NCBI GenBank assembly: GCA_964017185.1
Contig: OZ024872.1
Coordinates: forward strand, 46,090,188 to 46,154,187
DNA from: Rugalucina vietnamica
Taxonomy: Eukaryota; Mollusca; Bivalvia; Lucinida; Lucinidae
Reading direction: 5' to 3'
Length of the DNA stretch: 64,000 nucleotides
Position 1 is the stretch's first letter; every line of letters begins with the position of its first letter. Shown one piece after another: positions 8,610 through 38,035 of the stretch. Made by a program: the position numbers and the translations under genes. Below the pieces are notes generated by a model. It was not told the DNA's origin, made no database searches, and was given only the letters and a program-made list of their open reading frames with translations.

Positions 8610-8843
8610 TGAGCCACGACGCGAGAAAACCGGTCTTTGGGAGTTCTGACCAGCTCCGACATAAACCGGCCTGTACAGTCACAGAAGCAGGCTGGAAGCT
8701 TGAAATTTCGGAATTAAGAAGATGAGTTATACCATCCGTGTAGTGAAAACAAATGCACGGATCAGCTTAGCAGTTACTGCGAAGCTGATCTGCGCCTTTG
8801 TTTTCCCATAGCCAAAAATCCTGTTTTCTTGTGATGCGGCTCA
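8610..8843 (-). mobile_element. MITE-A copy 1 (CCGG subtype)
   Basis: MITE-A definition: about 235 bp. The + form starts TGAGCCGC-CATG-GAAAACC, followed by GCGAAAACAAAGGCGCAGATC, a palindromic core (GATCAGCTTCGCGG / CCGCGAAGCTGATC), GCGCCTTTGTTTTCGC and an asymmetric stretch with AAATTTCAAGCTTCTAGCC and GTTTGTGTCGGACC. It ends in GGTTTTC-GGCGGCTCA. This copy reads TGAGCCACGACGCGAGAAAA to GATGCGGCTCA. Confidence 0.85.
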
Positions 8844-8866: not shown

Positions 8867-9036
8867 TGAAGTGCATCACAAGAAAAATAGCTAGTACCTT
8901 GGAATTTCAGATTTAGATAGAAAAGATATTATGCTATTTAAGAAGCGTAAAAAAAAGTGCTCATCAAAAAGTGCTGATCTGTGCTTTTGTTTTTGCATAG
9001 GCGAAGTGGCTGTGACACTGCTCATGACACGACTCA
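8867..9036 (-). mobile_element. MITE-A copy 2, degenerate
   Basis: A decayed, internally deleted copy. Recognisable blocks are TTGGAATTTCAGATTTAGA, GTGCTGATCTGTGCTTTTG and CATGACACGACTCA. It ends 26 bp before the ADAT3 exon that starts at 9063. Confidence 0.6.
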
Positions 9037-9062: not shown

Positions 9063-12000
9063 ATGATGGAATGACCAATTATGATCCACCAGAAGCTGTG
9101 TTAGCTGATGAATATTATGCACCAGTACAGCTAGGTAGTGAAAAATATAAAAATGAGCTACGTCATGGGAAAACCAACAATGTGGTTTCTAAACAGGTTC
9201 AACACAAACCAAGCTGTTCAAGCACAGAAGGTGGCTAGAGGTTGGAAATTTAGGATTTATAAAGAAGAGGAATTGTACTATCTGTGTAGCGAAAACAAAG
9301 GCGCTGATCTGCGCCTTTGTTTTTCGCCTATGCAGATTGCTGGTTTTTCCATGTGGCGGCTCAAATATTTTGTTTGTTTGTATTGAGGCTTAACGTCCCA
9401 GTCAACAATTTTTCAGTCATGTTGGGATGGAGCCAATGCTTCCTGGGTTTGATCAGTACTGTAGGGAGTTAATGTGTCTTGATCAAGGACACAACATGGT
9501 GCCTAGCGATTCAGAGTCTGATGCTCTACCACTACACCATGACATTCCCTAATATAAAAATATATCTCAACATGAAGTGACTTGAGATTCACAACTTTTA
9601 CATATATACTTTTACATGTACCTCATGTATAGTTAAATTGAGGGAAATCTTTGGCATTATCGTATTTAACTCCCGTATGACAAAATGAGCTTACCTCCAT
9701 TTTAGCCGCGACACGAGAAAACCGGTCTTCGGGGTTTCTTACCAGTTGCAACACAAACCAGCCTATGCAGCTATAGTTGATATCTAGAAACTTGAAATTT
9801 CAGATTTAGGAAAAAGAGGAACTATACTATCCGAGTAGCGAAAATAAATGCCCTGATCAGCCGCGCAATTACTGTACAGTTACCAAAAGTGTAAATCAGC
9901 TTCACAGTTCATAGTTACTGCACAACTGATCTGTGCCTTTGTTTTCGCATAGGCAAATATCCGGTTTTACCATGATGCTCATTTGTCTTCTTAATGTGGG
10001 CCAAGTTGAGGAAAAATCCTGTAGATATGAGCCACCTCATGAGAAAACCAACAATCTGGTTTCCAAACAGGTCTGACACAAACTGGCCTGCACAGTCACA
10101 GTAGCAGGCTAGTAGCTTGAAATTTCGTAGAAGAGGGATTGTACTATTCTTGTAGCAAAACAAAGGTGCTGATAAGTTTTGCAGTTACTGCAAACTGCGA
10201 AGCTGATTTGCACCTTTGGTATCCCATATTCAGATTGTTGGTTTTCTCATGAGGCGGCTCATATATTATGACATTTTCTGACCATGTCTGACACAAAGCA
10301 AGTCATACAATCACAGAGGAGGGTTAATAGAAGCTTGAAGTTTTGATGAAGACAGAAAAGCATCCGGAAAACATGTCTGTGAAATGTATACCCCTTAAAC
10401 CCCTCTTTTATAAAGGAAAACTGGGATTTGCAGGGGTATACCTTTTAGAATTATCTTATTTTTTATCCAAAACATACATTCTGGGTACTCATTAGAACTG
10501 CCTCGTCTCTAATGTGTACCCACAATCTATGTTTTTGAGCAAAAATGGGAAAAATAAAAAAAAATCTGCTAAAATGTTCAATTTTTACAGGTGAATAAAA
10601 ACCTCTATATACTGCATGAGCATGTTTTCCTGATGGGTCTTTTTACTGTTCACGCTGCTGTGCTACACCATGAATACACAGCTGAGATACACCTATGTTT
10701 TAACCTATGCAATGTTTCTTGCACAGCAGCACAAAATTGTTTTATTTTCAGAGGATTTCTATGTATGCTGTATACAGAACAAGAAGGACACTTCTAAAAT
10801 TTTAAGGTAAATTTATTAAATGAAAGATCTGCATTTATTTACCTTTATCTTCCATACCTCAGCAGTATAGTATGGCATGATAGCAAAGTAACCAAGTCAC
10901 TTATATAAGCTTAATTGAGTCCTCCGTCAAACCACCCATCATGAATATTCATTTTTATATTGACCATTCAAATCAGCACATTAGCTAACGGTCAGTGACG
11001 GTTAGACAACACGTGGGTTAGACAAACAAACCAACACATGCTTTTTACAGGTAAATATAGGTGCAAAACACAACGAAATAGGGGTGGGCGTGGCTATACC
11101 TTGCTGGCGGAGGAGTCAATTGTATGGAAACCTGTTTTTTGGGGTTTCTCATCAGGCCCATACTGAAACCGGTCTGTATAGCAACATACAAACAATGGCC
11201 ATTGATTTGAAGTGACATGTTTGAATTGTGCTATCCATATACATATGTATATGAAAAAATATCCCCGTAAGCAGCACATTTAACACATTTTTGGACAGAT
11301 TTTCTCCTGACATTTCTACTATTAATAATTATTAATATTTATATTCAGTTACATTTGAATTTTTGAGACACAGTAAATTTTGGGAAGATCTTTTCTTGAT
11401 AGCTGAAACTTTAGATTCCTTCCAGGATACTGAGTGAGAAGTTTCCTTTGTCAAATCATCAGCATTTAAAGAGAGTAAAGGCAGGCCAAGCCAAAGGTAG
11501 TTATGAAATCATATCCTTACAATATACAGATTAACTCATTTAAGCCTGGCGTCCCTTTAATGAGACATAGGCAAACAGAGAGCCCCAGATGTGACGCCGC
11601 AGAACACGGCATCCCATATGGGGCTATTTCTGTTTGCTTAGATAATTTTCATCGAAAACTTGATTAAAATTTAAAAATCACACCTGATGCCCCTAAGAAC
11701 TGAAGAGGACTCACCCAAATGATAATGATGGGAAAGTCCGTTCGTCAAATATGGGTAAATTAAGCTGTAAAAATTCTAATTTTTCAGTTGCGTTTTTTAT
11801 GATTGCGTTAAACTTTGACAGGCTTATATACATGTCTGAGGAGGAAAAGGAAATTGCTAGATTGGAATATCTGATAGAAATATGAGCTGTAAAGGGCTAA
11901 AGGCATTGCAGAAATTTCTCCATGATCCCTAAATTCATAATAATCATCATGTTTACAACTTAAGATGATCACTTGAAGCTGATTTGATAGTTCTTACAAC

Positions 12001-14825
12001 ATTGTAGTTTGTAAAACTAATATTTGAGCCGCCTCATGGGAAAACCAACAATCTGCAAAAGGGAAAACAAAGACGCAGATCAGCTTCGCGGTAACCGCGA
12101 AGCTGATCAGCGCCTTTGTTTTCGCTACACAGATAGTACACTTCTTCTTTTTAAATCCGAAATTTCAAGCTTCCAGCCTGCTTCTGTGACTGTACAGCTC
12201 TGTTTGTGTCGGACCTGTTCAGAAACCACATTGTTGGTTTTCCCACGAGGCGGCTCATTTCTTGAAATTTTCATTTTAGATGCTCAGCTTCAGATTATCG
12301 TTGCCCCTGTTGAAGGGACAGAAAAGGACCACATGATAGACACAGTGACCACCAGTTGTCCCAGTCTAGGATCTCCCTATGTGGCCAAGATCCCAGTGAA
12401 ACCTCCATTGACGAGAAAACAATTTGAAGATAGTATACAGTATTGGCCAGTTAATTTTCATGAAGACAAAAAGTGAGTAGTATGTTTTATCGTTTATAGG
12501 GGGCAAAGTACATGTATGCATACGTCTGTACAGTATGTATCCCTGTACACCTAAAACCTACATTATGGGTACTCCTTAGAACCACCTTGGGTACCCATGA
12601 TCTACGTTATGAATGAAAATAAGAAAAAAAGTGTTTCACATCAATTTTGTTTATTTTCATAGATGACGATAAAAATGCATAGAGCATGGGCATGATGCAT
12701 TATAGTTTACTTTTTCAGAGTAACCAAACTGATAGATGGGACATTCTTCAGTTCTGAGGAGCTGTCTATAATGAGACAACACATGAGGGAAGCTGTGCAG
12801 TGTGCTGAAATGGGCAGACTGAATAAGCAGGTTGGTATTTTCAGTTACCATATTAACTCATTAATATACATGTACATATACTATGAGTTTAACAGCTGTT
12901 GGCATGTAACAGAGAAGGTGTATTTTTTCATAGATTTGTTCTGTGTGTTTCTGCACTGCAGAATTTGCAGTGACTTTTATTAGCATATTACAGAGTACTA
13001 AGATTCGATTGAAAACACTATGCGTGCTACAATTATATTACACAGACTACAACAACTGAATTGTAAGTGAAATGGACCTGCGAATGACCAGAATGTATGA
13101 CACATTCCCTTCTTAAAGATATGGTCATGAAAATATTTCTACAGCATTTATCAGCTAGGGATAATAGAAATGTGCACTAAGTAATCTACATCTGGGAAGT
13201 TCTGAAAATCAGAAACTACAAGAGTTAGACATTTTGTACTAAAAAAGTAGAATTTATTTTAGCTGATAAGCAGAAAGTTTGGAAAATAAAACATAAAACT
13301 TTGATTACAGATTCCTATTGGTGCAGTGATAGTTGACCCTGAGACTGACCTTGTGGTAGCCAAGTCACATGATCTTTGCCATGGTAACAACAGACTACAA
13401 CATGCTACTATGGTGTGTGTTGACATGGTAGCCAAGTCACAGGGAGGTGGCATGTGGAAATATGCAGGTAGTAAAGATTTTTTTAACTTTATAAGCCTTT
13501 GAGAGGAGAGTCTGTGCTTGGCATTCAAGGTTGTAAATTAATTGTGCAAATGAAAGATTATTGTTAAGTTTTTAACTGTTCATATGATTCTAAGTAAACA
13601 ATTTTTCAGTCATTTGGTGTGTTAGCTACTGCTTCCTGTGTCGTTCATCAGCACTGTGGCGATTGTAAAGTGTCTTGTTGAAAAACACAGAGTAGTGGCA
13701 GTAGGCCTTGAATCCCTGATCTCTCACTCAGTGTATAACACTGTACCACTGCTTTATCTACAGAGACTAACCAGTCCTTGAAATTCTGAAACATTGGCTT
13801 CTTGAAAGAGACATGCTTTCAAGACTGCAAATATGCAGGCCGAACAGTGCACTGCTCCATGAAGCATATGAAAGATATATCAATAAAGACACAGCATTGG
13901 CCATGTTTTATTTATTGCAGAGGAAAGACTGTATTCAGTTGATCCAACAAAAGCAGGTGAAACTGGAAGAAGTGAAAGTATTCCCTATCTCTGCACTGGC
14001 TACCATATATACCTGACTAGAGAACCTTGTGTGATGTAGGTATAAAATGAGCCGCCTCATGGGAAAACCAACAATCTGCATAGGCAAAAACAAAGGCGCA
14101 GATCAGCTTCGCGGTAACCGCGAAGCTGATCAGCGCCTTTGTTTTCGCTACTCTGATAGTACAATTCCTCTTCTACTTAAATCCAAAATTTCAAGCTTCT
14201 AGCTCTTTTCTGTGCTTGTACAGGCCGGTTTGTGCCAGATCTGTTCCGAAACCACATTGTTGGTTTTCCCACGAGGCGGCTCAAATATTGTATTGTAACT
14301 ATTATTTGATCCTTACCTGATGGAAAATAGCAACAAAGTCAACAAAAAATAGCAAGTCTTTTGTGTCAGTAATTACTGCATGTATATATTGCTAATGTTT
14401 TTGTTTTTACCTGACTTTAAATAAATTTTGACTTTACTTAATAAGTTTTTCTACAAACAACGCACTGACACCTCCTTCAGGTATTCCCCTCAAGAGGGTG
14501 ACACAGTAAACATAAGAGAATGGTTGTCATGAGAAGAGACATTTATTTGACACTCGGCTAGCTATTCTAGTCCACACAAATCCCGACATGACCACAGCCA
14601 TTTACTGGAATATTTAGTAACAAAATCAAAATATTCTTTTGCTTCAGGTGTGCAATGGCCCTTGTTCACTCCAGGATACAGCGAGTATATTATGGGAGTA
14701 GCTACAGAGAAGGGGCCTTGGGGAGCAAGTACAAGCTACACACACAGGCTGGGCTTAATCACCACTATCAAGTATTCAAAGGATTGTTGAAGGAGCAGTG
14801 TAATAAGTTATATGATGACCCTTGA
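9063..14825 (+). CDS. ADAT3: tRNA-specific adenosine deaminase subunit 3 (ADAT3/Tad3), 8 exons, first exon missing
   Basis: ADAT3 pairs with ADAT2 to convert A34 to inosine in tRNA anticodons. Splice-consistent exons are 9063-9134, 10752-10806, 11426-11496, 12280-12472, 12719-12830, 13311-13467, 13921-14035 and 14648-14825; all have AG/GT borders and matching phases, and together give about 316 residues. Family landmarks: LADEYYAPVQL, FPLSNHQHLKRVK, PPLTRKQFEDSIQYWPVNFHEDK, then the deaminase fold with IPIGAVIVDP, the zinc-ligand site LQHATMVCVD and the second zinc site TREPCVMCAMALVHSRI. The site reads H-A-T, so the catalytic Glu of active deaminases (HAE) is absent, as expected for this structural subunit (human has HAV). 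The C-terminus LNHHYQVFKG is conserved. The exon at 9063 starts in phase 1, so an upstream exon must exist. MITE-A copies fill most introns. Human ADAT3 is about 350 residues, so length fits. Confidence 0.93.
9154..9363 (-). mobile_element. MITE-A copy 3 (CCAACAAT subtype)
   Basis: TGAGCTACGTCATGGGAAAA to ATGTGGCGGCTCA. The palindromic core is deleted (GGCGCTGATCTGCGCC remains). It starts 19 bp after the splice donor of the ADAT3 exon ending at 9134. Confidence 0.85.
9371..9548 (-). mobile_element. SINE-1 copy (tRNA-derived)
   Basis: Read on the - strand it has a tRNA-like head with box A TGGTGTAGTGGTAGAGC, then the body GTTGTGTCCTTGATCAAG, CATTAACTCCCTACAGTA and CCCAGGAAGCATTGGCTCC, and a tail with GGGACGTTAAGCCTCAATAC. 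The same body occurs at 49309-49468. It is not a functional tRNA: box B has decayed and no acceptor stem closes. Confidence 0.8.
9704..9981 (-). mobile_element. MITE-A copy 4 (CCGG subtype, expanded core)
   Basis: Contains GAGAAAACCGGTCTTCGGGG and TTTCGCATAGGCAAATATCC. The core is enlarged by partial duplications of AGTTACTG/CAACTGATC-type sequence, making this copy about 40 bp longer than typical. Confidence 0.75.
10028..10261 (-). mobile_element. MITE-A copy 5 (CCAACAAT subtype)
   Basis: TGAGCCACCTCATGAGAAAA to CATGAGGCGGCTCA; both ends are well kept. Flanked by ATA on the left and TAT on the right. Confidence 0.88.
10361..10635. mobile_element. MITE-B copy 1
   Basis: MITE-B definition: about 260-275 bp, ends CATCA-GAAAACATGTCCATG and its reverse complement, a GGTATACCCCTG / CAGGGGTATACC motif, and a central palindrome GAACCGCCTCG/CGAGGCGGTTC flanked by GGGTAC and GTACCCACAATCTATG. 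This copy has CATCCGGAAAACATGTC on the left, GTGTACCCACAATCTATG in the centre and CATGTTTTCCTGATG on the right. It lies in an ADAT3 intron just upstream of the exon at 10752. Confidence 0.82.
10913..11118 (+). repeat. Dispersed repeat D, uninterrupted copy
   Basis: From TCCGTCAAACCACCCATCAT through GTTAGACAACACGTGGG and CATGCTTTTTACAGG to GCGGAGGAGTCAATTG. The reverse complement of its two halves flanks the 12 kb insertion in the HYLS1 intron (20035-20110 and 32712-32844). Followed at 11119-11200 by a scrap resembling MITE-A (GAAACCTG, GGGGTTTCTCATCAGG). Confidence 0.75.
12025..12257 (+). mobile_element. MITE-A copy 6, intact core (CCAACAAT subtype)
   Basis: TGAGCCGCCTCATGGGAAAA to CACGAGGCGGCTCA with the full core CAGCTTCGCGGTAACCGCGA. 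It ends 22 bp before the ADAT3 exon starting at 12280, so that intron's branch point probably lies in MITE sequence. The reading frame is open from the MITE straight into the exon. Confidence 0.93.
12530..12695. mobile_element. MITE-B copy 2, degenerate
   Basis: CCTACATTATGGGTACTCCT, AGAACCACCTTGGGTACCCA and ATCTACGTTATG match the MITE-B centre. The ends have decayed. It lies in the ADAT3 intron 12473-12718. Confidence 0.45.
13594..13762 (-). mobile_element. SINE-1 copy, degenerate
   Basis: On the - strand it starts at a tRNA-like head (AGTGGTACAGTGTTATACAC) followed by a body similar to the other SINE-1 copies. The AACAATTTTTCAGTCAT at its + strand left end is shared with 9371-9548. Confidence 0.6.
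14048..14283 (+). mobile_element. MITE-A copy 7, intact core (CCAACAAT subtype)
   Basis: TGAGCCGCCTCATGGGAAAA to CACGAGGCGGCTCA. It begins 12 bp after the splice donor of the ADAT3 exon ending at 14035. Confidence 0.93.
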
Positions 14826-14984: not shown

Positions 14985-15208
14985 TGAGCCACATCATGAA
15001 AAACCAACATTTCGCATATGCAAAAACAAAGGCGCAGATCAGCTCAGTAACTGCGAAGCTGATCAGCGCCCTTGTTTTCGCTACACAGATAGTACAATTC
15101 CTCTACTTTCTAAACCTAAAATGTCCAGCCTCTAGCCATCTTCAGTGCGTGTACAGCTCAGCTTGTATTGGACCTGTTCAAAAACCACATTGTTGGTTTT
15201 CTCATGAA
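14985..15208 (+). mobile_element. MITE-A copy 8, 3' end lost
   Basis: TGAGCCACATCATGAAAAAC is kept on the left. The right end stops after TTGGTTTTCTCATGA without the final GGCGGCTCA. It lies downstream of the ADAT3 stop (14825) and upstream of an AATAAA at 15345-15350, so it may be part of the 3' UTR; that is untested. Confidence 0.8.
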
Positions 15209-15395
15209 CAGTATGTCAGGTAAAAAAACAGTGAGATCAGTTGTATACATGTAGTTGTAAGGGTAGTCAAAGCATCTCAAATATGAGAGACATTTAGAAA
15301 ACTGCAGATTGACAATCCTGGATGTTGTAAATTCATGCTATTAAAATAAACTTAAACACATCACACATTATGTCATGTTTTATATCCAGACTTGA

Positions 15396-15560
15396 AACGC
15401 TGTGATGCAGGAAAACTGGTCTTCGGGTTTCAGACCAGGTCCGACACAAACCAGCCTGAATATAGCTGAATGTTTGAAATTTGGGATTTAAGTAGAAGAG
15501 GAATCATACTATCCGTGTTGCGAAAATAAATGTGCTAATTAGCTGTGCAGTTACTGCAAT
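15396..15560 (-). mobile_element. MITE-A copy 9, partial
   Basis: GGTCTTCGGGTTTCAGACC, GGTCCGACACAAACCAGCC and GTTGCGAAAATAAATGTGC. Truncated after the start of the core. Confidence 0.65.
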
Positions 15561-15727
15561 TCTACACTTGACCTCAAAAAATGCACTACACCAGTCAGCT
15601 AACTACCCTTCAAGAGACTTAGAACAATAGCTGCTGGGCTGTCGGGTGACTTCACATAACTCTTTGGACTGGTAAAAAGAGACTGGAAACCCAACTCTTT
15701 CTCTTTGTTCAATGTTACATCCTTTGC

Positions 15728-15930
15728 AAGATCATTTTAGCTCATATGAGATGGGCCAATCAGTAGGTGGAGCAAACACAGGAGAACCCCCAAGGAAAAC
15801 AACCTTGCACAACCGCAAGCTTAACTTGGCCCGTGTAGGGCTCAAACCAACACCAGACACAGTGGCCAGATAATCAAATAAGTGCATAAGTGAATCAGCG
15901 CTCTATAACCATTTGGCCACTGAGGCCACC
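15728..15930 (-). mobile_element. SINE-2 copy (tRNA-derived)
   Basis: On the - strand: a tRNA-like head GTGGCCAAATGGTTATAGAG, box B-like GGTTTGAGCCC, then GTGTTTGCTCCACCTACTGA and TTGGCCCATCTCATATGAGC. The same family is at 34252-34480 in the opposite orientation. The long spacer between boxes A and B suggests a class II tRNA (Ser/Leu-like) ancestor. Confidence 0.78.
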
Positions 15931-16013
15931 AAAACCAGAATATTGTAAAACATTGATTGTGGGTACACGTTAGAACTGCCTGGCTGAGGTGGTTCTAATG
16001 AGTACCACATTTT

Positions 16014-17121
16014 TTGTCCCCCGCCTTTTCGAAGAAAAGCGGAGGGACATAGTTTTTGGCTTTCCGTCATTCCGTCCATCCTCCTGTCCCCCTATAGGAG
16101 TATGTACCTTGTGGGTGCAACTCCTACAGTTTTATTCCAATTCTTTTGAAACTTTACAGATGTCTTGACCATGCTTTGAAGATGTGCATGTGATTTGGAT
16201 ATAATCCTCAGAATAATTTTTGATACTTTTTTCGCAATTTTAACTTTATAGTCAATTTTTCGGACATTTTGACAATGCAAGTGAATGGATGGTGGCTACC
16301 TTGTGGGCGCAACTCCTCCTACAGTTTTATTCCGATTCTTTTGAAACTTTACAGATGTCTTGCCCATGCTTTGAAAATGTGCATGTGATTTGGATATAAT
16401 CCTCAGATCAATTTTTGACTTTTTTCGCAATTTTAACTTAGTCAATTTTTCGGACATTTTGACAATGCAAGTGAATGGATGGTGGCTATCTTGTTGGCGC
16501 AACTCCTCCTACAGTTTTATTCCGATTCTTTTGAAACTTTACAGATGTCTTGACCATGCTTTGAAGATGTGCATGTGATTTGGATATAATCCTCAGATTA
16601 ATTTTTGACACTTTTTTGCAATTTTAACCAGAAATACAATTTTCGATCAGGTCTGACACATACCAGGCTGTACATCCTTCATTAGATGGCTAGGGGCTGG
16701 AACTTTTACATTTAAAAAGAAGAGAAATTATACTATCAGTGTAGCAAAAACAATGTTACTGCAAAGCTGATCTGCGCCATTGTTTTCACATATGCAAAAT
16801 GTTGGTTTTCATATGAGGCAGCTCATAATATAGAGAATTGTATGACATCATTCACTAAAACAACTTTTGTCCAGATTGTACTGTTGCAGCAATCATTCAA
16901 TGAGCTCTTGAACATGTTTTTCAGGAAAAAAAACCTGGGTGTGTGCATATTGGAGCATGTACACTTTATAGAGCAAATACGGTATAACAATACAATCAGT
17001 TGAGATGGATTTAAAACAAAATAAAACTAGGATTAAATAAACAATTTATTTTCACATACATCCTGCAATTACATTTTTATTGGCACTATTATATCAACAA
17101 AAACACAGGCGGGGGACATAA
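16014..17121 (-). mobile_element. Tandem-repeat/hairpin element TRH-1
   Basis: The left edge is a hairpin (16016-16048: GTCCCCCGCCTTTTC / GAAAAGCGGAGGGAC), followed by simple CCGTC/TCCTGTCC repeats and about 2.7 copies of a ~190-bp unit (16100-16640). The right edge AGGCGGGGGAC (17108-17118) is complementary to the hairpin arm. Read on the - strand this gives the order end motif, tandem units, simple repeat, hairpin, the same as TRH-2, TRH-3 and TRH-4. It is flanked by the two halves of MITE-B copy 3. Confidence 0.75.
16645..16826 (-). mobile_element. MITE-A copy 10, partial, inside TRH-1
   Basis: GATCAGGTCTGACACATACC, AGCAAAAACAATGTTACTGC and TTTTCATATGAGGCAGCTCA. The 5' end is missing. Confidence 0.65.
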
Positions 17122-17742: not shown

Positions 17743-17963
17743 TGAGCCGCGTCATAGGAAAACCAACAATGTGGTTTCTGAACAGGTCTAACAGAAACCA
17801 AGCTGTACAAGCACAGAAGATGGCCAGAGGCTGGAAGTTTTGGTTTTAGAAAGCAGAGGAACTGTACTATCCATGTAGCAAAAACAAAGTGGCTGATCAG
17901 CTTCACTGATCTGCACCTTTGTTTTTGCATATGCAGATTGTTGGTTTTCTTATGCGACAGCCC
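17743..17963 (-). mobile_element. MITE-A copy 11 (CCAACAAT subtype)
   Basis: TGAGCCGCGTCATAGGAAAA to TTATGCGACAGCCCA. The core is reduced to GATCAGCTTCACTGATC. Confidence 0.82.
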
Positions 17964-18067
17964 ATATTTAAGTCATTTTACTAAGGAATTGCCATTTTTC
18001 ACGTGATAAGAATGTTTTCATAACAACCACAAATTCTCAACAGTTGCCCAAATGTGGACAGCATAAA

Positions 18068-27800: not shown

Positions 27801-30800
27801 TTAAACTTGGCAGCCCGTAAAGCAGTGCCAGGACGGACAGTTAAGTTGCAAGGTCCTCGATTTAGGGCATCGAATGAGGTAAAGGCTCTACTGAAGGACT
27901 GTAAAAGTACACATGCTACATGGAAAGCCAATGGATCTCCGGGCCCCAACAGTGTTTACTATGTTGAGAGGAAGACGGCAAAGAAAAATTTACGCCGGCA
28001 AATTAGGCGGGAAAATTTTAACTGTAAAGAGCGTTTCTATAACAATCTCATGGAAAACCCAGATTCAAAAGCATTCCATAGACTTATACGGATGAACCAG
28101 AATGATAGATCAAATTCAAGTACATGTTTTCTTGTCAATGGTGAAAGTATAATGGACTTAAGTAAACAAAGACAAACCTTGAAATCATACTATGAAGACC
28201 TTGCGGTCCCAAAAGATGATATAAACTTTGATGACAAATACTTAGAAGAATGTGAGTCTTACACTGAACTTATTTATCAACTGAAACATATGAAAGATAA
28301 TGACATAACTGAACTGTTTACAGACAGTGAAATTGAATCCTGTATTAAACAACTGAATAGTGGGAAATCGGCAGATGAATTCGGCCTATGTGCAGAACAT
28401 TTAAAGGCAGCTGGTGGCGTCCTGATTCCAGTACTGAAAAACATTTTTAATGACACATTGCGGTCGGGGAAAATTCCGGAATACTTTAAGGGAGGGGTGC
28501 TTACACCAGTGCCAAAGAGTGGAAAAGACAATAGACTTTTAGATAACTATCGCGGAATAACAGTGACTTCAATCATAGGCAAGTTGTTTGAAAAACTTAT
28601 TTCATTAAGACTGCTGGAAAAAGTGAATAGTAACCAATCAGACTTACAATTTGGATTTACAAAGAATCTCAGTCCAATAATGAGTGCCTTAATTTGTTCT
28701 GAAGCCATAAATGAAGCAAAACTGGAGGGGAAACCATTATACCTGGTAACAATTGATACCAGGAAAGCTTTTGATGTTGTAAATCATGTGATTCTCAAAA
28801 AGACTCTCTTTGACGAGGGTGTAGCACCAGATCTTTGGAGTGTTGTGGATGATCTCTACAGTGATATGTCGTCCAAAATCAAGTGGCACGGTCAACTCAG
28901 TGAGAAGTTCAGTATCCAACAAGGGGTGCGCCAAGGAAACATTTTGTCGCCGCACCTCTATAAAATGTACGTCAACCCTCTTCTGGAAGAGCTGAAAAGG
29001 AGTGCCATCGGAGCACATATTGGTACCATATATGTTGGGACGCTGGCGGTAGCCGACGATTTCCTGTTTCTGTCAAATTGCCCGGACGAACTCCAAGTTA
29101 TGCTCAACTTGTCAGGATCATTCTCTGGCGAGAGACGATACAATATTCATCCAACAAAAACTACATTGGTCTCAAGAATATCAACAAGACTCAGTAGGGG
29201 GGAAGATATAAATAGACAATGGTTCATCGGAGAGTCGATAATAGGACAAAAAACAGAAACTGAACATTTAGGTATTATTAGAAGTGAAAAAGATGAAAAC
29301 AAACTGAATATAAATAAAAGGATCAGCCTTGCTAGAAGAACATTGTATGCTCTAATAAAAACGGGAGTTCACGGTTGTAACGGAATAAACCCAAAGACTT
29401 CATTTAAAATCTATCAAGTGTATGTCTTACCGCGCCTCCTATACGGTTTGGAGGTCCTGTCGCTCAACAAAAAGCAGTTAGACGAGCTGGAAAAGTTTCA
29501 TTTAGAGACATTGAAAAATATTCAATCATTACCGACAAGAACTGCCAACTCTGTTACATATTTATTATTGGGCGCCCTCCCACTGAAAGCTGAAATGGAT
29601 AGAAAACAACTAGGATTGCTTCACTCAATAGTTACTAGTGAAAATTTGACTCTGCAAGAAGTTTCAAAACGTCAAATACCAATGAAAAATCAGGGTAGCA
29701 TTTTTAAACATATTATGGAAACAATGGAGAGGTACGAGCTCCCGTCCGTAGAGGAGGTACAATCGCTGAATAAGGAACAGTGGAAACAAAAAGTGAAAAA
29801 AGCAGTTAAAAATTATTGGACGCAACTACTACAGAATGAAGCAGAAACAAAATCAACGCTGGAATGGTGCGCGATTTCATCTCTGCAAGTAGGCCTGACC
29901 CACCCAGTCTGGGACACAGTGGATCCAAATCGGCTGGATGTGATGAGAGGAATCGTTAAAGCACGCATGCTGACCGGGACATATATTCTCCAAACACATC
30001 GACAAAAATTCAGCATCGATGGGGTGACGGACGCGACCTGCCCTCTGTGTTGCTTGGAAGATGAAGACATCACTCATGTACTGACAAGGTGCCCAGCCCT
30101 CATCGAAATAAGGAACTCACACCTTGCCAAGATAAAGGGATGTATTCAAGACTCAAAGGGTCCACATGCATGGTCAGATCTGGTCAGTGACTCCAATACA
30201 TTGGTACAACTTATTCTAGACTGTCAGAAGTTTTTTCCTGTTCAACCAAACAAGGACAAGACATTATTGAAATCTGTTGAATCCTATTCAAGACTTTACT
30301 GTTACAAAGTTCATCTGAAGCGGTTATTCCTATACAACAACATCAAGGGTACTTCGGGGAACGATAAGGCTGCTGACCCGACATAAAGTTAAATTACAGC
30401 AAGGGCAAAACTTTAGTGGACTCTACCGGAGGACACGTGCGCCTATACTACAGGCGGAAAATACAACACAAAGAAGAAGAAGATAAGCATTTCTGCAAAA
30501 ACAAAATTCAAATGACTGCAATTTTAGCGGAAAAATAGCAATTTTCCACTTTTCCCATTATAAGTCTATGGAAACTTTAAGTTGCCATAGCAACCAGAGT
30601 TCTTATCCACCTGGAATGAAAAACACAAATTATGTAGAGGCCACTGTCAGGAACATGTATACAAAGTACAGGCTTAATCCCCTTGACAGTTTTTGAGAAG
30701 ATTTTTGAATGTTTTTCGAAATTTTGCCCTATATGGGGCCCCTGCAACCAATCAAAATAAAGGATTAGGACAAAAGTCACATGAAACGTAGAGGACTACT

Positions 30801-33800
30801 CAATAAACATTTCTGCAAAAACAAAATTCAAATGTCTGCAATTCTAGCGGAAAAATAGCCAATTTCCACTTTTCGCATTATAAGTCTATGGAAACTTTAG
30901 GTTGCCATAGCAACCAGAGTTCTTATCCGCCTGGAATAAAAAACACAAATTATGTAGAGGCCACTGTCAGGAACATGTATACAAAGTACAGGCTTAATCC
31001 CCTTGACAGTTTCTGAGAAGAAGATTTTTGAATGTTTTTCGAAATTTTGCCCTATATGGGGCCCCTGCAACCAATCAAAATAAAAGATTAGGACAAAAGA
31101 CACATGAAACGTAGAGGACTACTCAATAAACATTTCTGCAAAAACAAAATTCAAATATCTGCAACAAGACAACAAAAACTTGCAATTTTCACTTTTTTCC
31201 ATTATAAGTCTATGGGAAGCATAAGTTGCCATAGCAACCAGAGTCCTTATCCTATCAAAACAAAAAACACAATTATTCTTTCCCCTTACCTGTAGATAGT
31301 GTATGTGTAATATGAGAACAATCGGCCCAGCGGTTTCAGAGAAGAAGATCTTTGAAATTGTGAACGACGGACGGACGGACGCCGGAGCATGGGTATACTA
31401 TAAGCTCACCTATGAGCCTTCGGCTCAGGTGAGCTAAAAAGTTGCGATTTCGATCTCCGGCCGGTATATTCATGTTATTTTGATGACTTGTGTTTATCCT
31501 GACATAATTAAAGTAAACCGCCTGTTAAATCATTGCTATTGTACATAATTAAATACCTTTGATCAAATGTCATTAAACTTATTTATTCATTCAATGATCC
31601 ACATAGTCACTAGAAGTGTGGTAATTTTATTCTTTGTCGGAAAGGACAGTGCTCAAGGCGCGAATTTTTAATGACGCCCTTGATTTTTAAATGATTATTT
31701 CGCTTCCATTCTTCTGTTCAAAGATCGAATAATCATGGATGATGTGAAAAGCAACACAAGTGACAAAGGTCATCATAAATTTTAATGTAATCAAGAATAT
31801 ACTTGTGTTGATTATAAGCCATCTAAACAAATACGTGACATCTGCAAGTTTCATTCTTGAAAATACTTATTATTTTTTTGATTTATTGTTTTATATTTAT
31901 TCAAAAATTATAAACATGCATTTGTCTTTTAAATTCCTCCGAGAAACTCCGAGAAAAAGAGTTTTATCGATAAATCCAGGTAATTACCTTTCTCGGAGAA
32001 ACACCGCGAAATTTCACCGAGAAACACTGCGAAATTTTGTGCAGAAGATTTCGTCTACCTGGCTTATTTCGCGGTGTTTCTCCGAGAAATAAAAATTTCG
32101 CGTTTGCCATGGTTGCGGAGAAACGCGGAATATGTTGTTATTTTTTTACCGGGAGTGTATATTATAATGTTATTAATCAAGTTATTTCGTATTGGACCAG
32201 TTACAGGTCCGAGGTTAGCTGTATTGGACCTCGGCCTTTGGCCTCGGTCCTTCGGCCTCGGTCCAATACAGCTAACCTCGGACCTGTAACTGGTCCAATA
32301 CGAAATAACATGATTAATGAGATTTTTATTAATTAACTGTCAAAAGTCCATATTGACCCATATCATCCGCTAGCACCTCAAGCATACCTTCGCCATTCTT
32401 AGCGCCCATGTCTGACATTCTTTTCAAAGATGCTGACATGATTTTTGCTTGTTTGTTCACTATTTCACTCGATCAGCTGTTTTTGTTTCAACACATTCAA
32501 CGCGGCGCGTGACCTTGCACGTGAATTTTGACCAATAAGGTGTAGGGATTTCCATATAGATAACAGGTCAATCCATATAGATACGAGGTCAAGGTCAGCT
32601 GTATTAGGTCGAGGTGAAATCCAGTATAGACTATACGAAAAAAGAAACATCACCAGTATGACATAGACCAAATTCTCTGTATAAGTACTATATACTAATA
32701 AGTTAATTAATAATTACCTGTAAAAAGCATGCGTTGGTTTGTTTGTCTAACCCATGTGTTGTCTAACTGTCATTGACCGTTAGCTAATGTGCAGATTTGA
32801 ATGGTCAATATAAAATGAATATTAATGATGGGTGGTTTGACGGAGAACTCAATTCCCTGACATTTTATTTCAAATTTACCTGACCTTGAAAATTTTTCAA
32901 TTATCCCTGAGTTTTGGCAACCTTGATGCTGCATGAGCACAGACAATTGAAGATTATTTTTCAATACTGCACATAAGAAGAATCATTGTGGTAAAAAATA
33001 AAACAGCAGCCTACCTGATGCAGGTCTAGGATCATCAGGACTGAGTCTGTATGGTGGCTGGAACAGGAGAAACAAAACATAACTACATACATGTTACATG
33101 TTGTTAAATGCAAAGAGGCTTGTATTCTTGTATTGAGAAAATACATCAAGTTCAAATGTCTGTTAAAAGAAAAACTAGTAAAAGGCAGATTCTAAAATGA
33201 AAACCATATATGCCATAATAGCAAATGACTCAAAATTTAATTTAGCAGCAACCTTTTGAGAGTTACTGATGCCAAAACCTGCTTTTAACAGTACATAAGT
33301 TTCAAAACATGTCCACTTACACATAGTATAATCCCACAAATTTCTTTCAAGCCTCTAGCCATATACATGTACTTCATTGCCTTAAATAAACAGCCTACTT
33401 TGTGTTTGTCCTGGTTAGAAACCCTCAAACACAGATTTTCATGTTACTTAGCTTATATTACTATTTGAGCCGCCGCATGGCAAAACCAACAATCTGCATA
33501 AGCGAAAACAAAAGCACAGATCAGCTTCGCAGTAACTGCGAAGCTTATCAGAGCCTTTGTTTTCGCTACACGGATAGTACAATTCCTCCTCTTTTAAAAT
33601 CCGAAATTTCAAGCTTCTAGCCTGATTCTGTGACTGTACAAACTGGTTTTTGTCGGACCTGGTCAGGAACCCAAAATGTTGGTTTTCTCATGCACAGGCT
33701 CATTTATACATACATCATCTTGTGCTGACTGTGGTCTTCTTTTGTTGAAGAAATCTACCGAGTCATAGATTCCTAATTCTCGCAGTCTCTCATTTATATC

Positions 33801-36800
33801 CATCAAACTTCCTGAAAATAAATGCATCTTGTTTGACTAACAGCCCATTGACACATTTATTCATTCCAGGTGTTGCAGTTGTCCTTGTACCGGAAACATG
33901 CGGGTTTCGTGTTTTACACCCCACTCAACAGCTATTAGCTAGTAAAGGTCATATGGATTTTGGAGGCAAGAACTATGTTTATGCATCATCTGAATGACTG
34001 GAATACAGAAATACTAAACAATGCACAGCTTGTATCTTAAAAAGATAATGTCCATACTGAACTATAAGTATTGTATATTGGATGAGCATGACACCATCTT
34101 AACATGATATGTCTGAAGAATTAAAGATGCATCTATAGAAGTACAATGTGGTAGAGAATCAGACTGGTGTCAGAAGGGAAGGGCCTGTCCAGTCCCAGTG
34201 AAGTAACCAGTATGTTTGCTCAATCATGACATGAATGAAGCAGGGTTTACCCCCTTAGGCGGTTAAGAGCGCTGTTTTTTAATCACTCAATCATTTTACC
34301 GCTGTGTCTGGTGTGGGTTCGAGCCCCGCTCTGGCCACAATGTGAGACAAGCCAAGTTCTGCTTGCGGGTGTGCCAGGTGGTTTTTCTTGGGGTTCTCCA
34401 GTTTTCCCCCCACCTATTGATTGGCCCGTCTCTTATGAGCTGAAATAATCTTGAAATGGACGTAAAACTGAATTAAAAAAGAAGCAGCATGGTGGACTAG
34501 GATGTCAGAAAAGCATTAACTCAAACAGACAAAACATGCATCTCATATGAGCCTGATAGCAAGAAAACTGGTCTTCAGGGTTTCTGACCATGTCCAACAC
34601 ATACCAGGTTGTACAGCCATAGAAGCTTTAAAGATTTAAGAAGATGAGGTATTGTACAAACCATGTAGTGAAAATAAAGGCACTGATCAGCTGCACAGCT
34701 GATCTGCGTATCAGCTGCACAGCTGATCTGCGTCTTTGTTTTTGCATAGAAAAAATCCATTTTTCTCATTACTTGGCTTATATATTTATCTTATCTCTTT
34801 ATACTAACCTGCATCACTTTCTGTGACTGACTCATCTATCCTTCTAGTACCATCTTTGTCTTTCCTGGTCACAAAAACAATAGAAGTATCATAAGTTAAT
34901 AGAAGTATCATAAGAGCCGCATCGTGAGAAAACCGGATTTTTGCCTATGCGAAAACAAAGGCGCAGATCAGCTTCGCGGTAACCGCGAAGCTGATCAGCG
35001 CCTTTGTTTTCGCTACACGGATAGTACAATTTCTCTTCTTCTTAAATCCGAAATTTTAAGCTTCTAGCCTGCTTCTGAGACTGTACAGCCCGGTTTGTGT
35101 CGGACCTGGTCAGAAATCCCGAAGACCGGTTTTCTCGCGCCGCGGCACATAAACAATAAGTATCATAAGTTAAACTTTTTCTGCATCATACTTTTAAACA
35201 GCTCATTTCTAAAACATTGTATGCAAGATTCCTGATTTCAGCTTAAAACATGGAACAGTTCAATGTCACTATTACTGGCTTGACTGATTACACTCACTGT
35301 TGGCACAAAGTTGGTATTGTTTCCAATATTCTTGTTAATAGTATCTTTATTGTAATGGTTTCATTCACAACACACATGTAGTGTGTTTCTGTGAACCAAA
35401 GATAGTATTACGATAAAGTAGAATGAAAATTTCATAAAATAGCAAAAGGAAAGGCATCCAAATTATGACTGATACACTTCTTACCTCAAAACTTTTCTTT
35501 TCACCATCCGTATTCTCTCAGACTCCGTCTCTGACACATCATCCCTGTGTGACAACTGTGACTGATTAGCCTCGCTGTCATACAGGCTGAAATGGCCATT
35601 CTGTTGGGTCGGTAACCTCACATCTTGATGTACTGGTTCCCTGGACACCGCTCGTCTTACGGGATCTACTTCAGGTTCCACTCCTCGGTTTTCTTTTCCG
35701 ATGCGAATTCCTGAATACTGAAAACATGAGCATTATATTTAGTCATTTCGTTTAGTACCTGTCATTGAATAATGTACATGTACTTTAATCTGACCCCGTT
35801 TCCTTCTCTTTTATGTTAAGCTCAAAATGATTAGAAATTATTAGATAAATGCAGTATGAAATAAAAATGATCTTCCAAACAGCCAAATATAAAGATGTCT
35901 TATATGTCAACCACCACTGATGATCAGTTTTCAACTGTGTAATCAAAACAGGTCAAATTCTCTTCTAATACATGTACTCCAATAATTTTCTTGTTGTGTA
36001 CTGTTTGCCTCTTCTTAGGAGTTCTCGTTTGGGCTACAGTTGTAAACAGACTAGAAAATCTCTCAACCATGCTATAATGAATGGTTAAGAGTTTCGATTG
36101 TATTACCTGTTGTCTATAAAGTGTGTCTTCAGTTTGTCTCTCTACCGGAGATTCTTCTAGTGGAGTTCTTGTTCTAGGTGCTGCGCTTCCAGGACCAGAT
36201 CCTCCTGCAAATAAAGCATGAGCTACTTCAAGACAACCCCTTAAAACCCCATTACGAAAACATGTCCATGTAATAAACGGATAATTTTTTAGCTTTAAAA
36301 ATTGAAAATTTTCAGCTGAATGTTTTTGATATTTTTGCTCAAAACATAGATTGTCGGTACACGTTAGAACCGCCTCGGCGAGGCGGTTCTAACGAAGGCG
36401 GTTCTAACGAGTACCCACAATCTATGTTTTGGTGCAAAACTAAGAAAAATAGATATACCCCTGCAAACCCAAGGTAGGGTTCCAGGGGGTATGCTTTTTA
36501 TGGGCATGTTTTCCTCATGCCATGGAATCTAATGGACCATGGTTTCCAGCTAGGTAGATACAAACCACACTTTACAACCACAGAATATGACTCAAGGCTT
36601 CAAAATTCCAAGTAGTTGATCTGTATCTTTGTTATTTACCTATGAGCCGCGACATGAGAAAACGGGTCTTCAGGATTTCCGACCAGGTCCGACACATACA
36701 GGCCTTTGCAACCACAGAAGAAAGCTAAAGTCTTGAAATTATGGGTATAAGTAGAGGAGGAATTGTACTACGGTGAGGCCAAAACAAAGGCGCTAATCAG

Positions 36801-38035
36801 CTTCTTGCATAGGCAAAAAACTGGTTTTCTCATGGCAAGGCTCATATGAAAAGTAAGCTTTCTCATTAATTTACAACTGTTGATTTATGTCTTAACTTTG
36901 CACCCCAGTTGGGTCATAAATAAATTTTAGTCAATCTCAAAGTCAAATTATACATACTCAAAAGTAATAATAATGTTATTCACAGCCAGTAACCATAATA
37001 ATACATCCACAATTTCCGTATTATTTTACACAATATACCTGTGACAGAATGTGAGGTATCTGGTAGATGTGATGATAGACTAGTATTCTGTGAACTTTGT
37101 TTGCTGCGCTCGTGACGAATAAGACGACCGAGATCTGAAAATGTTACAAAAATACTTGAATACAGCAGACTACAAAATTATTGACAAATTAATTCATTTT
37201 CATGGAAATCAGACACATTCTGATAAACTTTTATTTATAAATTTAATAAAACATTCCAACATTTGAGCCGCCACATGGAAAAACCAACAATCTTCATAGG
37301 CGAAAACAAAGGCGGAGATCCGCTTTGCGGAGATCCGCTTTGCGGAGATCCGCTTTGCGGTAACCGCGAAGCTGATCAGCACCTTTGTTTTCACTACTCG
37401 GATAGTAGAATTCCTCTTCTACTTAAATCCGAAATTTCAAGCTTCTACCTCTTTTCTGTGCTTGTACAGCCCTGTTTGTGTCGGACCTGTTCGGAAACCA
37501 CATTGTTGGTTTTCCCACGAAGCAGCTCATTTATAGATTTAAGAATAATTTAATGCCTTATAGAATAAGAAAATATTCTCAGGATCTACGATAGCACACA
37601 TTTTAATTGTCCTTTCAGAAAAGAAAATAAATTACTGTATTGGAATGGGACAAATCTTTCTTAAAACACAATAATGCAATCTCTCCATACTTATAAATGA
37701 GCTGGGACATGAGAATACTGGTCTTCAGGGTTTCCGACCAGGTCTGACATAAACCATCACAAAAATCACAGAAGATGGATAGAAGTTTGAAATCTCGTCA
37801 TTAAAAAAAGAAGATTGTACTACATGTAACTACAAAAAAAAACAACTTTAGGCACTGATCAGCTGTGCAGCTACTGCAGCATGGTTTTCGTATGCGGCAG
37901 CTCAAATACAAATACAAACCTTTCTTGAATTCCTCTAGTTTAGTATCAGGCACCGAGGAATAACCCAGCTTGGACAACTCTTCTCTTATCTCATCATCTG
38001 TGAAATCTAAACTGTCATCCATTATGTACACCTTG
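18834..38035 (-). CDS. HYLS1: Hydrolethalus syndrome protein 1 homologue (HYLS1), 9 coding exons
   Basis: HYLS1 is a conserved centriolar protein needed for cilium assembly. Exons in transcript order are 38035-37920 (ATG at 38022), 37134-37039, 36204-36107, 35717-35485, 34864-34809, 33811-33714, 33057-33015, 19808-19627 and 18968-18834 (TGA). Every junction has AG/GT and the phases join, giving 347 residues (human about 299). Landmarks: N-terminal LDFTDDEIREELSKLGY, basic MVKRKVLRRK followed by IDESVTESD, the HYLS-1 box DPVARYQEFRKSWDQQ, APGEKNHKNLRWNVREQM, and the C-terminal VFVPNKYTVPSDKKRNALRW. A 5' UTR exon is suggested by a GTAAG donor (exon edge 38141) and an acceptor just before 38035. 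Intron 7 is 13.2 kb and filled with nested elements. MITE-A copies end 10-30 nt from several splice sites. The gene is convergent with ADAT3. Confidence 0.93.
18987..19232 (-). mobile_element. MITE-A copy 13 (CCAACAAT subtype)
   Basis: TGAGCCTGTGTGTAAGAAAA to GCGGCGGCGGCTCA. It lies 18 bp upstream (in HYLS1 sense) of the last exon's start at 18968, so branch-point and upstream intron signals must be MITE-derived or squeezed into that gap. Confidence 0.87.
20035..20110 (-). repeat. Dispersed repeat D, left half of a split copy
   Basis: CAATTGACTCCTCCGCCAGC onward is the reverse complement of 11040-11118. The copy stops at 20110 next to the TIR of the 12 kb element. The other half is at 32712-32844. 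Confidence 0.75.
20864..22275 (+). mobile_element. Tandem-repeat/hairpin element TRH-2
   Basis: The left end is CTATAGCCCCGCTTCTG. Then come about 7.5 copies of a ~151-bp unit (20905-22160), a simple ACGGAACC/ACGGAATG repeat (22165-22230), and a terminal hairpin (22241-22275: TATAGCCCCACTTT / AAAGCGGGGCTATA) that matches the left end. The architecture matches bivalve 'pearl' and Helentron-associated INE elements; placement in those groups is inference. Confidence 0.78.
20905..22160 (+). repeat. ~151-bp tandem repeat, about 7.5 units
   Basis: Unit landmarks are AGGCAACAATCCCAAGCTAG, AAATTTGGTCAGATTCTGTC, TTCTCGAGATATTGAGCGGA and AAGGGCCGTAACTCCGTCAA. Units start near 20993, 21151, 21304, 21456, 21606, 21757, 21909 and 22060. 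The first is partial (about 84 bp). Apparent short ORFs here are repeat frames, not genes. Confidence 0.92.
22303..22568. mobile_element. MITE-B copy 4, intact centre
   Basis: ATTACGAAAACATGCCCATG on the left, ACCGCCTCACCGAGGCGGTT at the centre, GATATACCCCTGCATACCCC, and GAAATGTTTTCCTGATG on the right. It follows directly after TRH-2. Confidence 0.88.
22569..23290. other. Unannotated part of the 12 kb element
   Basis: No ORF with family resemblance. Contains repeated ACATGTACATGTA-type short repeats near 23080. Confidence 0.4.
24595..26910 (+). CDS. LINE-d ORF1 protein with PHD-type zinc finger
   Basis: A 771-residue ORF starting with ATG. An N-terminal region of about 250 residues has no recognised motif. 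A PHD-like zinc finger spans roughly residues 260-308 (CPICEEGAMLDTIQCEECTM, WFHYKCVG, FICVNCN; pattern C2-C2-HC-C2). A charged linker follows, then a predicted coiled coil near 421-447 (LERQIKEKDKTINLLKRLN) and a Gln/Asn-rich tract near 505-630 with QQQQV and MQPHQGY. ORF1 proteins of some CR1-like elements carry such fingers and bind nucleic acid or chromatin; binding here is inference. The ORF overlaps ORF2, which lies in the -1 frame. Confidence 0.88.
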   Translation: MSDKEKAIVPKVPASAEVSTLRRSRRPSSSNLKNIGSNNSQQNKGYHLDKVKAMEKKAEACLREQISYEMKPGKNFVAEFSTTAYEVAKQFVKEFLETDKAVQSEFCVKTETSTEQSGAEVEIRYKLFQKRKDGEPGCYSKLTINFYNTSSRMLANGSRVDLVMDRIFKELLIEVKRLYSNIVVMDRNIINAISMSLEDQTNDNPVIKPQMNDSLQRCAQNQNEQPSLTDVEFNSSDKKRDPSESQQSYQTMEAEDYAECPICEEGAMLDTIQCEECTMWFHYKCVGLSKERARNIPDSNPFICVNCNDQKLYEDLPIKPNISVQSQLSPNTNKRSIREKDNEKLEDREITVIDDQRTPNITKHNSSNENIEQFKGQGTIKNQEPDVRQLNAGKNNKKNSNSTNQSKRKTNSEGCDIESKTLIIQLERQIKEKDKTINLLKRLNETMGNDNTNTDTQTQANNGDQSQPCANCQSGQKSMDKVDQNAPVLQPADNFGIENRIRLLEMNTMQNLAIMTNNNIQIQTQMQMLSNQMVAQSQNFMFLQQQQVLASNSMNNPYRYIQQPVINGFSQGFNWAQPQLFVRPMYQPMQPHQGYYTQVIQGHVYRPAAYSAPYSATQTQQTSQSRQETGTAIEKQTTEHEQSQINPNVQKHENDIIKLTPETKERQAIESPQTQSKNRHRHTVSSVDGSPIKSINSNVDSCEKVRQNHINSSDPIIDLNKANINSEEHSKGEKLNDETLVTKDNFLRVPGLKHFPPDREDPLLENLAERQ
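26889..30386 (+). CDS. LINE-d ORF2: endonuclease/reverse transcriptase
   Basis: The frame is open from 26787 to 30386. It has no in-frame ATG until about 27249, which is after the first endonuclease motif, so expression probably needs a frameshift or reinitiation. The start given is the candidate slip site. Endonuclease motifs are KLSSINIEGIKSNISFL, CVQEHWL, KGGVAIIWP, LVGDMNGT, QIDYIL and SAHTVIS (in place of the usual SDH). RT motifs are NYRGITVTSIIGKLFEK, IDTRKAFDVV, QQGVRQGNILSPHLY and VADD in place of F/YADD. A C-terminal zinc knuckle CPLCCLEDEDITHVLTRC is present. Length is about 1,165 residues from the slip site. Related to LINE-b; clade not assigned. Confidence 0.88.
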   Translation, partial: KFGGKTIKLSSINIEGIKSNISFLIELTRVQQLICVQEHWLNDFEKSVFNSLIPNYDSYVRCWDCNEQVTNFKAKRGKGGVAIIWPKCWSHLVKRLEEGNERIIGIELKTKDEPLYIINCYMPTNDGKSKSDYQKHIDILHSLIDKYSLRGTVILVGDMNGTLLSNRKNPHDVILKDFVNEHGLSWRQEDMGTESTFVSHTGNGNSQIDYILSTTKDILNSVKVEEKHHLNQSAHTVISSTLSVSMETLHSDKHKKSQPKTVTKLMWDKVDTESYQSYLTKEFETLHGDQCWDSEEQLKIISDSLNLAARKAVPGRTVKLQGPRFRASNEVKALLKDCKSTHATWKANGSPGPNSVYYVERKTAKKNLRRQIRRENFNCKERFYNNLMENPDSKAFHRLIRMNQNDRSNSSTCFLVNGESIMDLSKQRQTLKSYYEDLAVPKDDINFDDKYLEECESYTELIYQLKHMKDNDITELFTDSEIESCIKQLNSGKSADEFGLCAEHLKAAGGVLIPVLKNIFNDTLRSGKIPEYFKGGVLTPVPKSGKDNRLLDNYRGITVTSIIGKLFEKLISLRLLEKVNSNQSDLQFGFTKNLSPIMSALICSEAINEAKLEGKPLYLVTIDTRKAFDVVNHVILKKTLFDEGVAPDLWSVVDDLYSDMSSKIKWHGQLSEKFSIQQGVRQGNILSPHLYKMYVNPLLEELKRSAIGAHIGTIYVGTLAVADDFLFLSNCPDELQVMLNLSGSFSGERRYNIHPTKTTLVSRISTRLSRGEDINRQWFIGESIIGQKTETEHLGIIRSEKDENKLNINKRISLARRTLYALIKTGVHGCNGINPKTSFKIYQVYVLPRLLYGLEVLSLNKKQLDELEKFHLETLKNIQSLPTRTANSVTYLLLGALPLKAEMDRKQLGLLHSIVTSENLTLQEVSKRQIPMKNQGSIFKHIMETMERYELPSVEEVQSLNKEQWKQKVKKAVKNYWTQLLQNEAETKSTLEWCAISSLQVGLTHPVWDTVDPNRLDVMRGIVKARMLTGTYILQTHRQKFSIDGVTDATCPLCCLEDEDITHVLTRCPALIEIRNSHLAKIKGCIQDSKGPHAWSDLVSDSNTLVQLILDCQKFFPVQPNKDKTLLKSVESYSRLYCYKVHLKRLFLYNNIKGTSGNDKAADPT
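31438..32126. other. Right subterminal part of the 12 kb TIR element
   Basis: No ORF. 31938-32100 holds inverted CTCGGAGAAACACCG-type motifs mirroring 20165-20340. Confidence 0.5.
32171..32319. repeat. Foldback element with ~65-bp arms
   Basis: The left arm from TATTAATCAAGTTATTTCG through GTATTGGACC mirrors the right arm ending CGAAATAACATGATTAATG. The loop is made of repeated CCTCGG / GGCCTTTGGCC / TTCGGCCTCGG. Just outside the right TIR of the 12 kb element. Confidence 0.9.
32320..32711. other. Unannotated sequence between foldback and repeat D
   Basis: Contains further GGTCAAGGTCAGCTGTATTA and AGGTCGAGGTG motifs (32590-32620) resembling the foldback loop. No gene signal. Confidence 0.4.
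32712..32844 (-). repeat. Dispersed repeat D, right half of a split copy
   Basis: ATTACCTGTAAAAAGCATG to GGGTGGTTTGACGGA is the reverse complement of 10913-11050. Confidence 0.75.
33466..33702 (+). mobile_element. MITE-A copy 14 (CCAACAAT subtype)
   Basis: TGAGCCGCCGCATGGCAAAA to CATGCACAGGCTCA. Its end is only about 10 bp from the splice donor of the HYLS1 exon 33811-33714. Confidence 0.92.
34252..34480 (+). mobile_element. SINE-2 copy
   Basis: tRNA-like head AGGCGGTTAAGAGCGCTG with box B GGGTTCGAGCCCCGCT, then GCTTGCGGGTGTGCCAGGTG, CCACCTATTGATTGGCCCG and an AT-rich 3' end with AATTAAAAAAG. It has no tRNA acceptor end, so it is not a tRNA gene. Confidence 0.82.
34548..34780 (-). mobile_element. 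MITE-A copy 15 (CCGG-like, core duplicated)
   Basis: TGAGCCTGATAGCAAGAAAA. The core carries a tandem duplication of CAGCTGCACAGCTGATCTGC. It ends about 28 bp from the HYLS1 exon 34864-34809. Confidence 0.8.
34913..35149 (+). mobile_element. MITE-A copy 16, intact core (CCGG subtype)
   Basis: GAGCCGCATCGTGAGAAAAC to TCTCGCGCCGCGGC. Starts about 48 bp from the HYLS1 exon 34864-34809 on its upstream (5') side. Confidence 0.9.
35150..35484. other. HYLS1 intron remainder
   Basis: No repeat or gene recognised. Confidence 0.4.
36250..36520. mobile_element. MITE-B copy 5, duplicated palindrome arm
   Basis: ATTACGAAAACATGTCCATG to GGGCATGTTTTCCTCATG. The centre CGCCTCGGCGAGGCGGTTCT is followed by an extra AACGAAGGCGGTTCTAACGA. 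It lies in a HYLS1 intron. Confidence 0.88.
36545..36632 (-). mobile_element. MITE-A fragment
   Basis: GATACAAACCACACTTTACA, ACCACAGAATATGACTCAAG and GCTTCAAAATTCCAAGTAGT resemble the asymmetric half of MITE-A with large deletions. Confidence 0.5.
36643..36844 (-). mobile_element. MITE-A copy 17 (CCGG subtype, core deleted)
   Basis: TGAGCCGCGACATGAGAAAA to CATGGCAAGGCTCA. Confidence 0.82.
37264..37529 (+). mobile_element. MITE-A copy 18 with triplicated core segment
   Basis: TGAGCCGCCACATGGAAAAA to CACGAAGCAGCTCA. The left core arm is present three times in tandem (unit GCGGAGATCCGCTTT, 37313-37360), making the copy about 30 bp longer than usual. Confidence 0.9.
37698..37904 (-). mobile_element. 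MITE-A copy 19 (CCGG-like)
   Basis: TGAGCTGGGACATGAGAATA to GTATGCGGCAGCTCA. It ends about 15 bp from the donor of the first HYLS1 coding exon (edge 37920). Confidence 0.82.

Follow-up and report, generated by a model that had tools for sequence, protein, structure and literature searches.

Copies of a short repeated element, MITE-A, were found close to the exon edges of two neighbouring genes, ADAT3 and HYLS1, more often than random placement within the introns would give, as the original prediction had held. Seven of the 12 copies in secure introns are at most 30 nt away from an exon, while 1.30 are expected under uniform placement (P 5.5e-5), and with the putative first intron of ADAT3 the figures are 8 of 15 and 2.31 (P 3.7e-4). 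The reading that we consider fairly likely is that of an ordinary Sola2-type MITE which inserts at AWWT, its crowding at exon edges arising partly from AWWT-rich intron ends. Transposons are usually rare beside exons, being harmful to splicing. A family that crowds exons, if real, would mean either that AT-rich target choice can make such a pattern, or that the transposase reads gene architecture. No publication reporting that a MITE or Sola family concentrates at exon borders was noticed among the matches listed, which is weak evidence that none exists, given the partial literature coverage.

The window, i.e., the whole stretch of DNA analysed, is 64 kb long with a GC content of 37.9%, and contains ADAT3 and HYLS1 as a tail-to-tail pair (Table 1). 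All internal ADAT3 edges within 9063-14825 are GT-AG, splicing yields a single open frame, and the spliced product matched solved ADAT3 chains with an E value of 2e-71; no match to ADAT3 was found in the viral-contig collection. A first coding exon of ADAT3 is placed tentatively at about 8237-8270, and since this exon is putative, counts are reported both with and without the intron that follows it. The last exon of HYLS1 matched Pfam HYLS1_C (E 1.9e-13). The HYLS1 ATG is at 38022 and the stop near 18834, the latter position being hand-counted from the translation. The spliced HYLS1 frame is open on both sides of exon 36204-36107, which would be frame-preserving by its length of 98 nt. The exon edges around the copies, as originally predicted, proved to be GT-AG borders of open frames in both genes, but two ADAT3 exons between 9134 and 12280 had been missed (10752-10806 and 11426-11496), and copies 3 and 6 lie in separate introns.

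Table 1. Genes and MITE-A copies in the window. Distances are recounted ones, with the originally predicted values in brackets; TSD, target site duplication.
Feature	Position	Strand	Remarks
ADAT3	9063..14825	+	open spliced frame; match to solved ADAT3 chains
ADAT3 exons, first half	9063-9134, 10752-10806, 11426-11496, 12280-12472	+	
ADAT3 exons, second half	12719-12830, 13311-13467, 13921-14035, 14648-14825	+	
HYLS1	18834..38022	-	Pfam HYLS1_C match; open spliced frame
HYLS1 exons, first half	38022-37920, 37134-37039, 36204-36107, 35717-35485, 34864-34809	-	
HYLS1 exons, second half	33811-33714, 33057-33015, 19808-19627, 18968 to stop near 18834	-	
MITE-A copies 0 (8319-8537, diverged) and 1 (8611-8842)	8319..8842		putative first ADAT3 intron; each at least 48 nt from edge
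MITE-A copy 2	8868..9035	-	27 nt (26) before ADAT3 acceptor edge 9063; TSD AAAT
MITE-A copy 3	9155..9362	-	20 nt (19) after ADAT3 donor edge 9134; TSD AAAT
MITE-A copies 4 (9703-9980) and 5 (10029-10260)	9703..10260	-	mid-intron
MITE-A copy 6	12026..12256	+	23 nt (22) before ADAT3 acceptor edge 12280; TSD ATTT
MITE-A copy 7	14049..14282	+	13 nt (12) after ADAT3 donor edge 14035; TSD AAAT
MITE-A copies 8-12	14986..18303		intergenic, between ADAT3 and HYLS1
MITE-A copy 13	18988..19231	-	19 nt (18) before HYLS1 acceptor edge 18968; flanks ATGT/ATTC, imperfect TSD
MITE-A copy 14	33467..33701	+	12 nt (11) after HYLS1 donor edge 33714; TSD ATTT
MITE-A copy 15	34549..34779	-	29 nt (28) after HYLS1 donor edge 34809; TSD ATAT
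MITE-A copy 16	34914-35148		49 nt from HYLS1 acceptor edge 34864
MITE-A copies 17 and 18	36644-36843, 37265-37528		>30 nt from any edge
MITE-A copy 19	37699..37903	-	16 nt (15) after HYLS1 donor edge 37920; TSD AAAT
MITE-A copy 20	49202..49562	+	interrupted by SINE-like insert
MITE-A copy 21	58250..58449	+	TSD AATT

Copies were searched for with a profile built from 14 of them, together with inspection of their ends, and the window was found to hold 22 copies besides several diverged fragments. With a length of 234 bp and the ends GAGCC...GGCTC, the consensus is predicted to fold as a long hairpin (-103.6 kcal/mol), in which an inner palindrome lies close to one end. The end sequences GAGCCGC and GCGGCTC pair in this fold and form the terminal inverted repeats expected of a MITE, as is a TSD of constant length across many copies. 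Both ends are readable in 19 of the copies, and a perfect 4-bp TSD flanks 15 of these; copies 8, 9 and 10, each lacking a readable end, stand outside this count. In 14 of the 19 the duplication has the AWWT form reported for Sola2 (ATAT, AAAT, ATTT or AATT), copy 16 has ATAA, and the match is imperfect at copies 0, 13, 17 and 20. The element is non-coding. The one listed open reading frame of at least 120 aa over a copy, 12021-12476, runs for 151 codons across the whole of copy 6 and in frame into ADAT3 exon 12280-12472, so that retention of copy 6 would not halt translation there. The hairpin pattern gave 0 matches in the genome-contig and viral-contig collections searched. MITE-A is probably a Sola2-derived MITE, because AWWT is the reported Sola2 target site: one source gives the Sola2-type TSD as AWWT and lists ATAT, AAAT and ATTT from a second species, and Sola2 and its non-autonomous derivatives resemble MITE-A in having this AT-rich 4-bp TSD and terminal inverted repeats (PMC3627910). 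The likeness is one of TSD and of the presence of inverted repeats, and no transposase was seen for MITE-A: among the 18 open reading frames of at least 120 aa in the window none was recognized by eye as a Sola2 transposase, three of them being searched against Pfam. Sola2 is present in bivalves according to a survey (PMC10294476). Going by its repeat types, the host of MITE-A may be a bivalve or another mollusc.

Eight intronic copies are situated 12 to 29 nt from an exon, and all eight distances given earlier were right to within 1 nt (that of copy 2 was taken from the copy end 9035 and the edge 9063). Copies 2, 6 and 13 lie at acceptors, whilst copies 3, 7, 14, 15 and 19 lie at donors. Relative to the gene, 5 of these copies are sense and 3 antisense, and 2 of the 7 remaining intronic copies are sense. 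The 72-nt ADAT3 exon 9063-9134 is flanked by copies 2 and 3 (8868-9362) at 27 and 20 nt, and repeat pairing across this exon could favour exon skipping or circular RNA.

In the permutations each element was removed together with one copy of the TSD, and the copies were replaced randomly within their own introns, with per-intron numbers kept and the donor hexamer and acceptor end spared. Copies 8-12, 20 and 21, located outside introns, were left out. A version of the test that pooled all introns was discarded: its P values were lower, but are inflated by the empty 13-kb HYLS1 intron. A preference for AT-rich DNA flanking splice sites had been proposed as a cause of the crowding, and this explanation stood in part. 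Of 314 AWWT sites in 14 secure introns (the 13-kb one excluded), 56 fall in the stretches at most 30 nt from an exon, whose share of the sequence is about 11-12%. When placement was restricted to AWWT, the expectation for the secure introns rose from 1.3 to 2.5 of 12 copies (2.49; P 0.0047) against the 7 seen, and with the putative first intron it was 3.99 against 8 of 15 (P 0.02). Once the choice of threshold was allowed for by tests spanning 10-100 nt, these P values were 0.0086 and 0.0036, respectively. Target choice covers 1.2 excess copies in the secure introns and 1.7 in the larger set, out of 5.7 in each case, i.e., about a fifth to a third, under a null that is a simplification, since the own sites of copies 13, 16 and 17 (ATGT, ATAA and CTAT) were not placeable in it. 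The excess beyond AWWT is nominally significant, but it comes from a single locus at which the pattern was spotted first and tested after. A wider target preference was rejected as the full explanation: a 24-base target profile trained on 10 non-edge copies cut the expectation rather than raised it (1.96 and 2.41, P about 5e-4). With four diverged fragments taken as insertions, the AWWT null gave 8 of 16 against 3.27 expected (P 0.0075) and 9 of 19 against 4.77 (P 0.025), and uniform placement gave P values of 1.6e-4 and 4.7e-4. The additional hit is fragment 33324-33444, which has inexact ends and falls exactly at the 30-nt limit after removal of copy 14. Weaker profile matches, e.g., 10653-10715 (E 0.0059), were omitted from all counts. 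Uniform placement overstates the effect, and the AWWT-matched null is the control for genome-wide testing.

The clustering of copies around the gene pair is a stronger pattern than the crowding at edges. Twenty of the 22 copies fall within 26% of the window, namely 8237-19808 and 33015-38022 (binomial P 2.4e-10, a value that treats copies as independent and uses interval limits chosen after looking). The density is about 1.0-1.3 copies per kb around the pair and 0 to 0.08 per kb in the rest of the window; the density of AWWT around the pair is not above that of the rest. Such a concentration around two genes would fit open chromatin. The rightmost 26 kb of the window hold two copies and the 13-kb HYLS1 intron none; as this intron contains a non-LTR retrotransposon, part of the gap may be due to later insertion. 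The retrotransposon (24484-30386) consists of a PHD-finger frame followed by endonuclease and reverse transcriptase domains, and its frames 24484-26910 and 26808-30386 overlap. Two more open frames, 1001-2608 and 3425-6301 on the reverse strand, resemble non-LTR reverse transcriptases by appearance.

According to the account we favour, a Sola2-type transposase probably mobilizes MITE-A, which would be a non-autonomous DNA transposon of the cut-and-paste type. It inserts at AWWT sites, duplicates them, and has accumulated in and around ADAT3 and HYLS1. Its closeness to exon borders would come partly from the higher AWWT content of intron ends, and insertions breaking the donor or acceptor signal would be lost, so that the remaining ones come no closer to the exon than about 12 nt. 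The excess beyond AWWT would then stem from chance or from a tendency to enter accessible DNA around genes, and not from a role in splicing. Both this residual excess and the fewer near-edge matches predicted by the wider profile count against the account. The same excess points to true targeting, in which intron ends would attract the transposase more than their AWWT content accounts for, e.g., through DNA left bare at the borders of nucleosomes or opened during transcription. Against the AWWT null it was seen in HYLS1 (4 of 7 copies versus 1.37, P 0.029) and less distinctly in ADAT3 (3 of 5 versus 1.12, P 0.077). For mammals, PMC3088655 describes transposons as greatly underrepresented near exons, and its section on those at most 20 bp from exons, which excludes DNA transposons, places them mostly near donors. 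MITE-A shares the lean towards donors (5 of 8) and differs by an excess where mammals show depletion, which makes that excess unusual. We nevertheless regard true targeting as unlikely, given a single locus with small numbers that was spotted before testing, and an excess over AWWT which, among 15 copies, is clear at donors (5 versus 1.93, P 0.033) but not at acceptors (3 versus 2.05, P 0.34). A rather improbable variant is a family that targets splice flanks and is tolerated closer to exons than is usual in mammals, since its ends and TSD would recreate CTCAN either way. The crowding could also be a matter of survival, with mid-intron copies deleted and edge copies persisting because deletions next to exons are selected against. 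On general reasoning this needs neither targeting nor function; edge copies are, however, no more diverged than the seven other intronic copies (median 0.185 versus 0.175, P 0.96), and diverged fragments persist mid-intron. Survival bias was rejected on this lack of an age difference, and we hold it very unlikely.

The original prediction had further raised the possibility that MITE-A copies provide signals for splicing in the manner of introners, and this was for the most part not supported: GT or AG lies outside the element and its TSD at all eight near edges, orientation is mixed, and five of the eight copies are at donors. The branch-point consensus is yUnAy. The GGCTC end of the element followed by the TSD reads CTCAN, which is branch-point-like, whichever the orientation of the element. 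At copy 6 CTCAT at -23 is the sole yUnAy match between -45 and -14 before acceptor 12280, and at copy 13 the element end contains two matches, CTCAC at -19 as well as CTTAC at -31 (acceptor 18968). With no match outside the element end at either, a contribution of these two copies to splicing at their acceptors is possible, judged from sequence. The end of copy 2, in contrast, reads CTCAA, with one match inside the element, CTCAT at -39, and another outside it, TTGAT at -19; at 7 of 16 acceptors the same interval contains no yUnAy, so the motif is not required. Together with the number of copies at donors, this makes it quite improbable that some copies were kept as suppliers of CTCAN. Creation of host introns by MITE-A would have a parallel in Symbiodinium, where PMC9860276 describes introners that, like MITE-A, are short and intronic with terminal inverted repeats and 4-bp TSDs; MITE-A differs from them in that it neither brings nor recruits splice sites, nor forms the intron (PMC9860276). 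After removal of the elements, 308-887 bp remain in the nine secure introns that contain copies, and 6 of the 15 secure introns are copy-free; in the putative first ADAT3 intron about 160 bp would be left by arithmetic from the ends. MITE-A as an introner was rejected on this intron anatomy, residual introns and external splice dinucleotides alike, and we assign such creation next to no probability.

Searches for tRNA (ARAGORN) and against Rfam at gathering score gave no match in the 64-kb window. The SINE-like insert interrupting copy 20 (49307-49466) has a tRNA-like head by eye (none by ARAGORN), and the stretch 9412-9552 beside copy 3 is 68% identical to it. Copy 21 lies about 0.8 kb downstream of an open DHHC palmitoyltransferase frame at 56512-57474 (Pfam E 2e-29). 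Tandem arrays were observed at 20945-22161 (151-bp unit), 54001-54634 (180 bp), 56117-56435 (4 bp, TATC) and 38298-38694 (16 bp).
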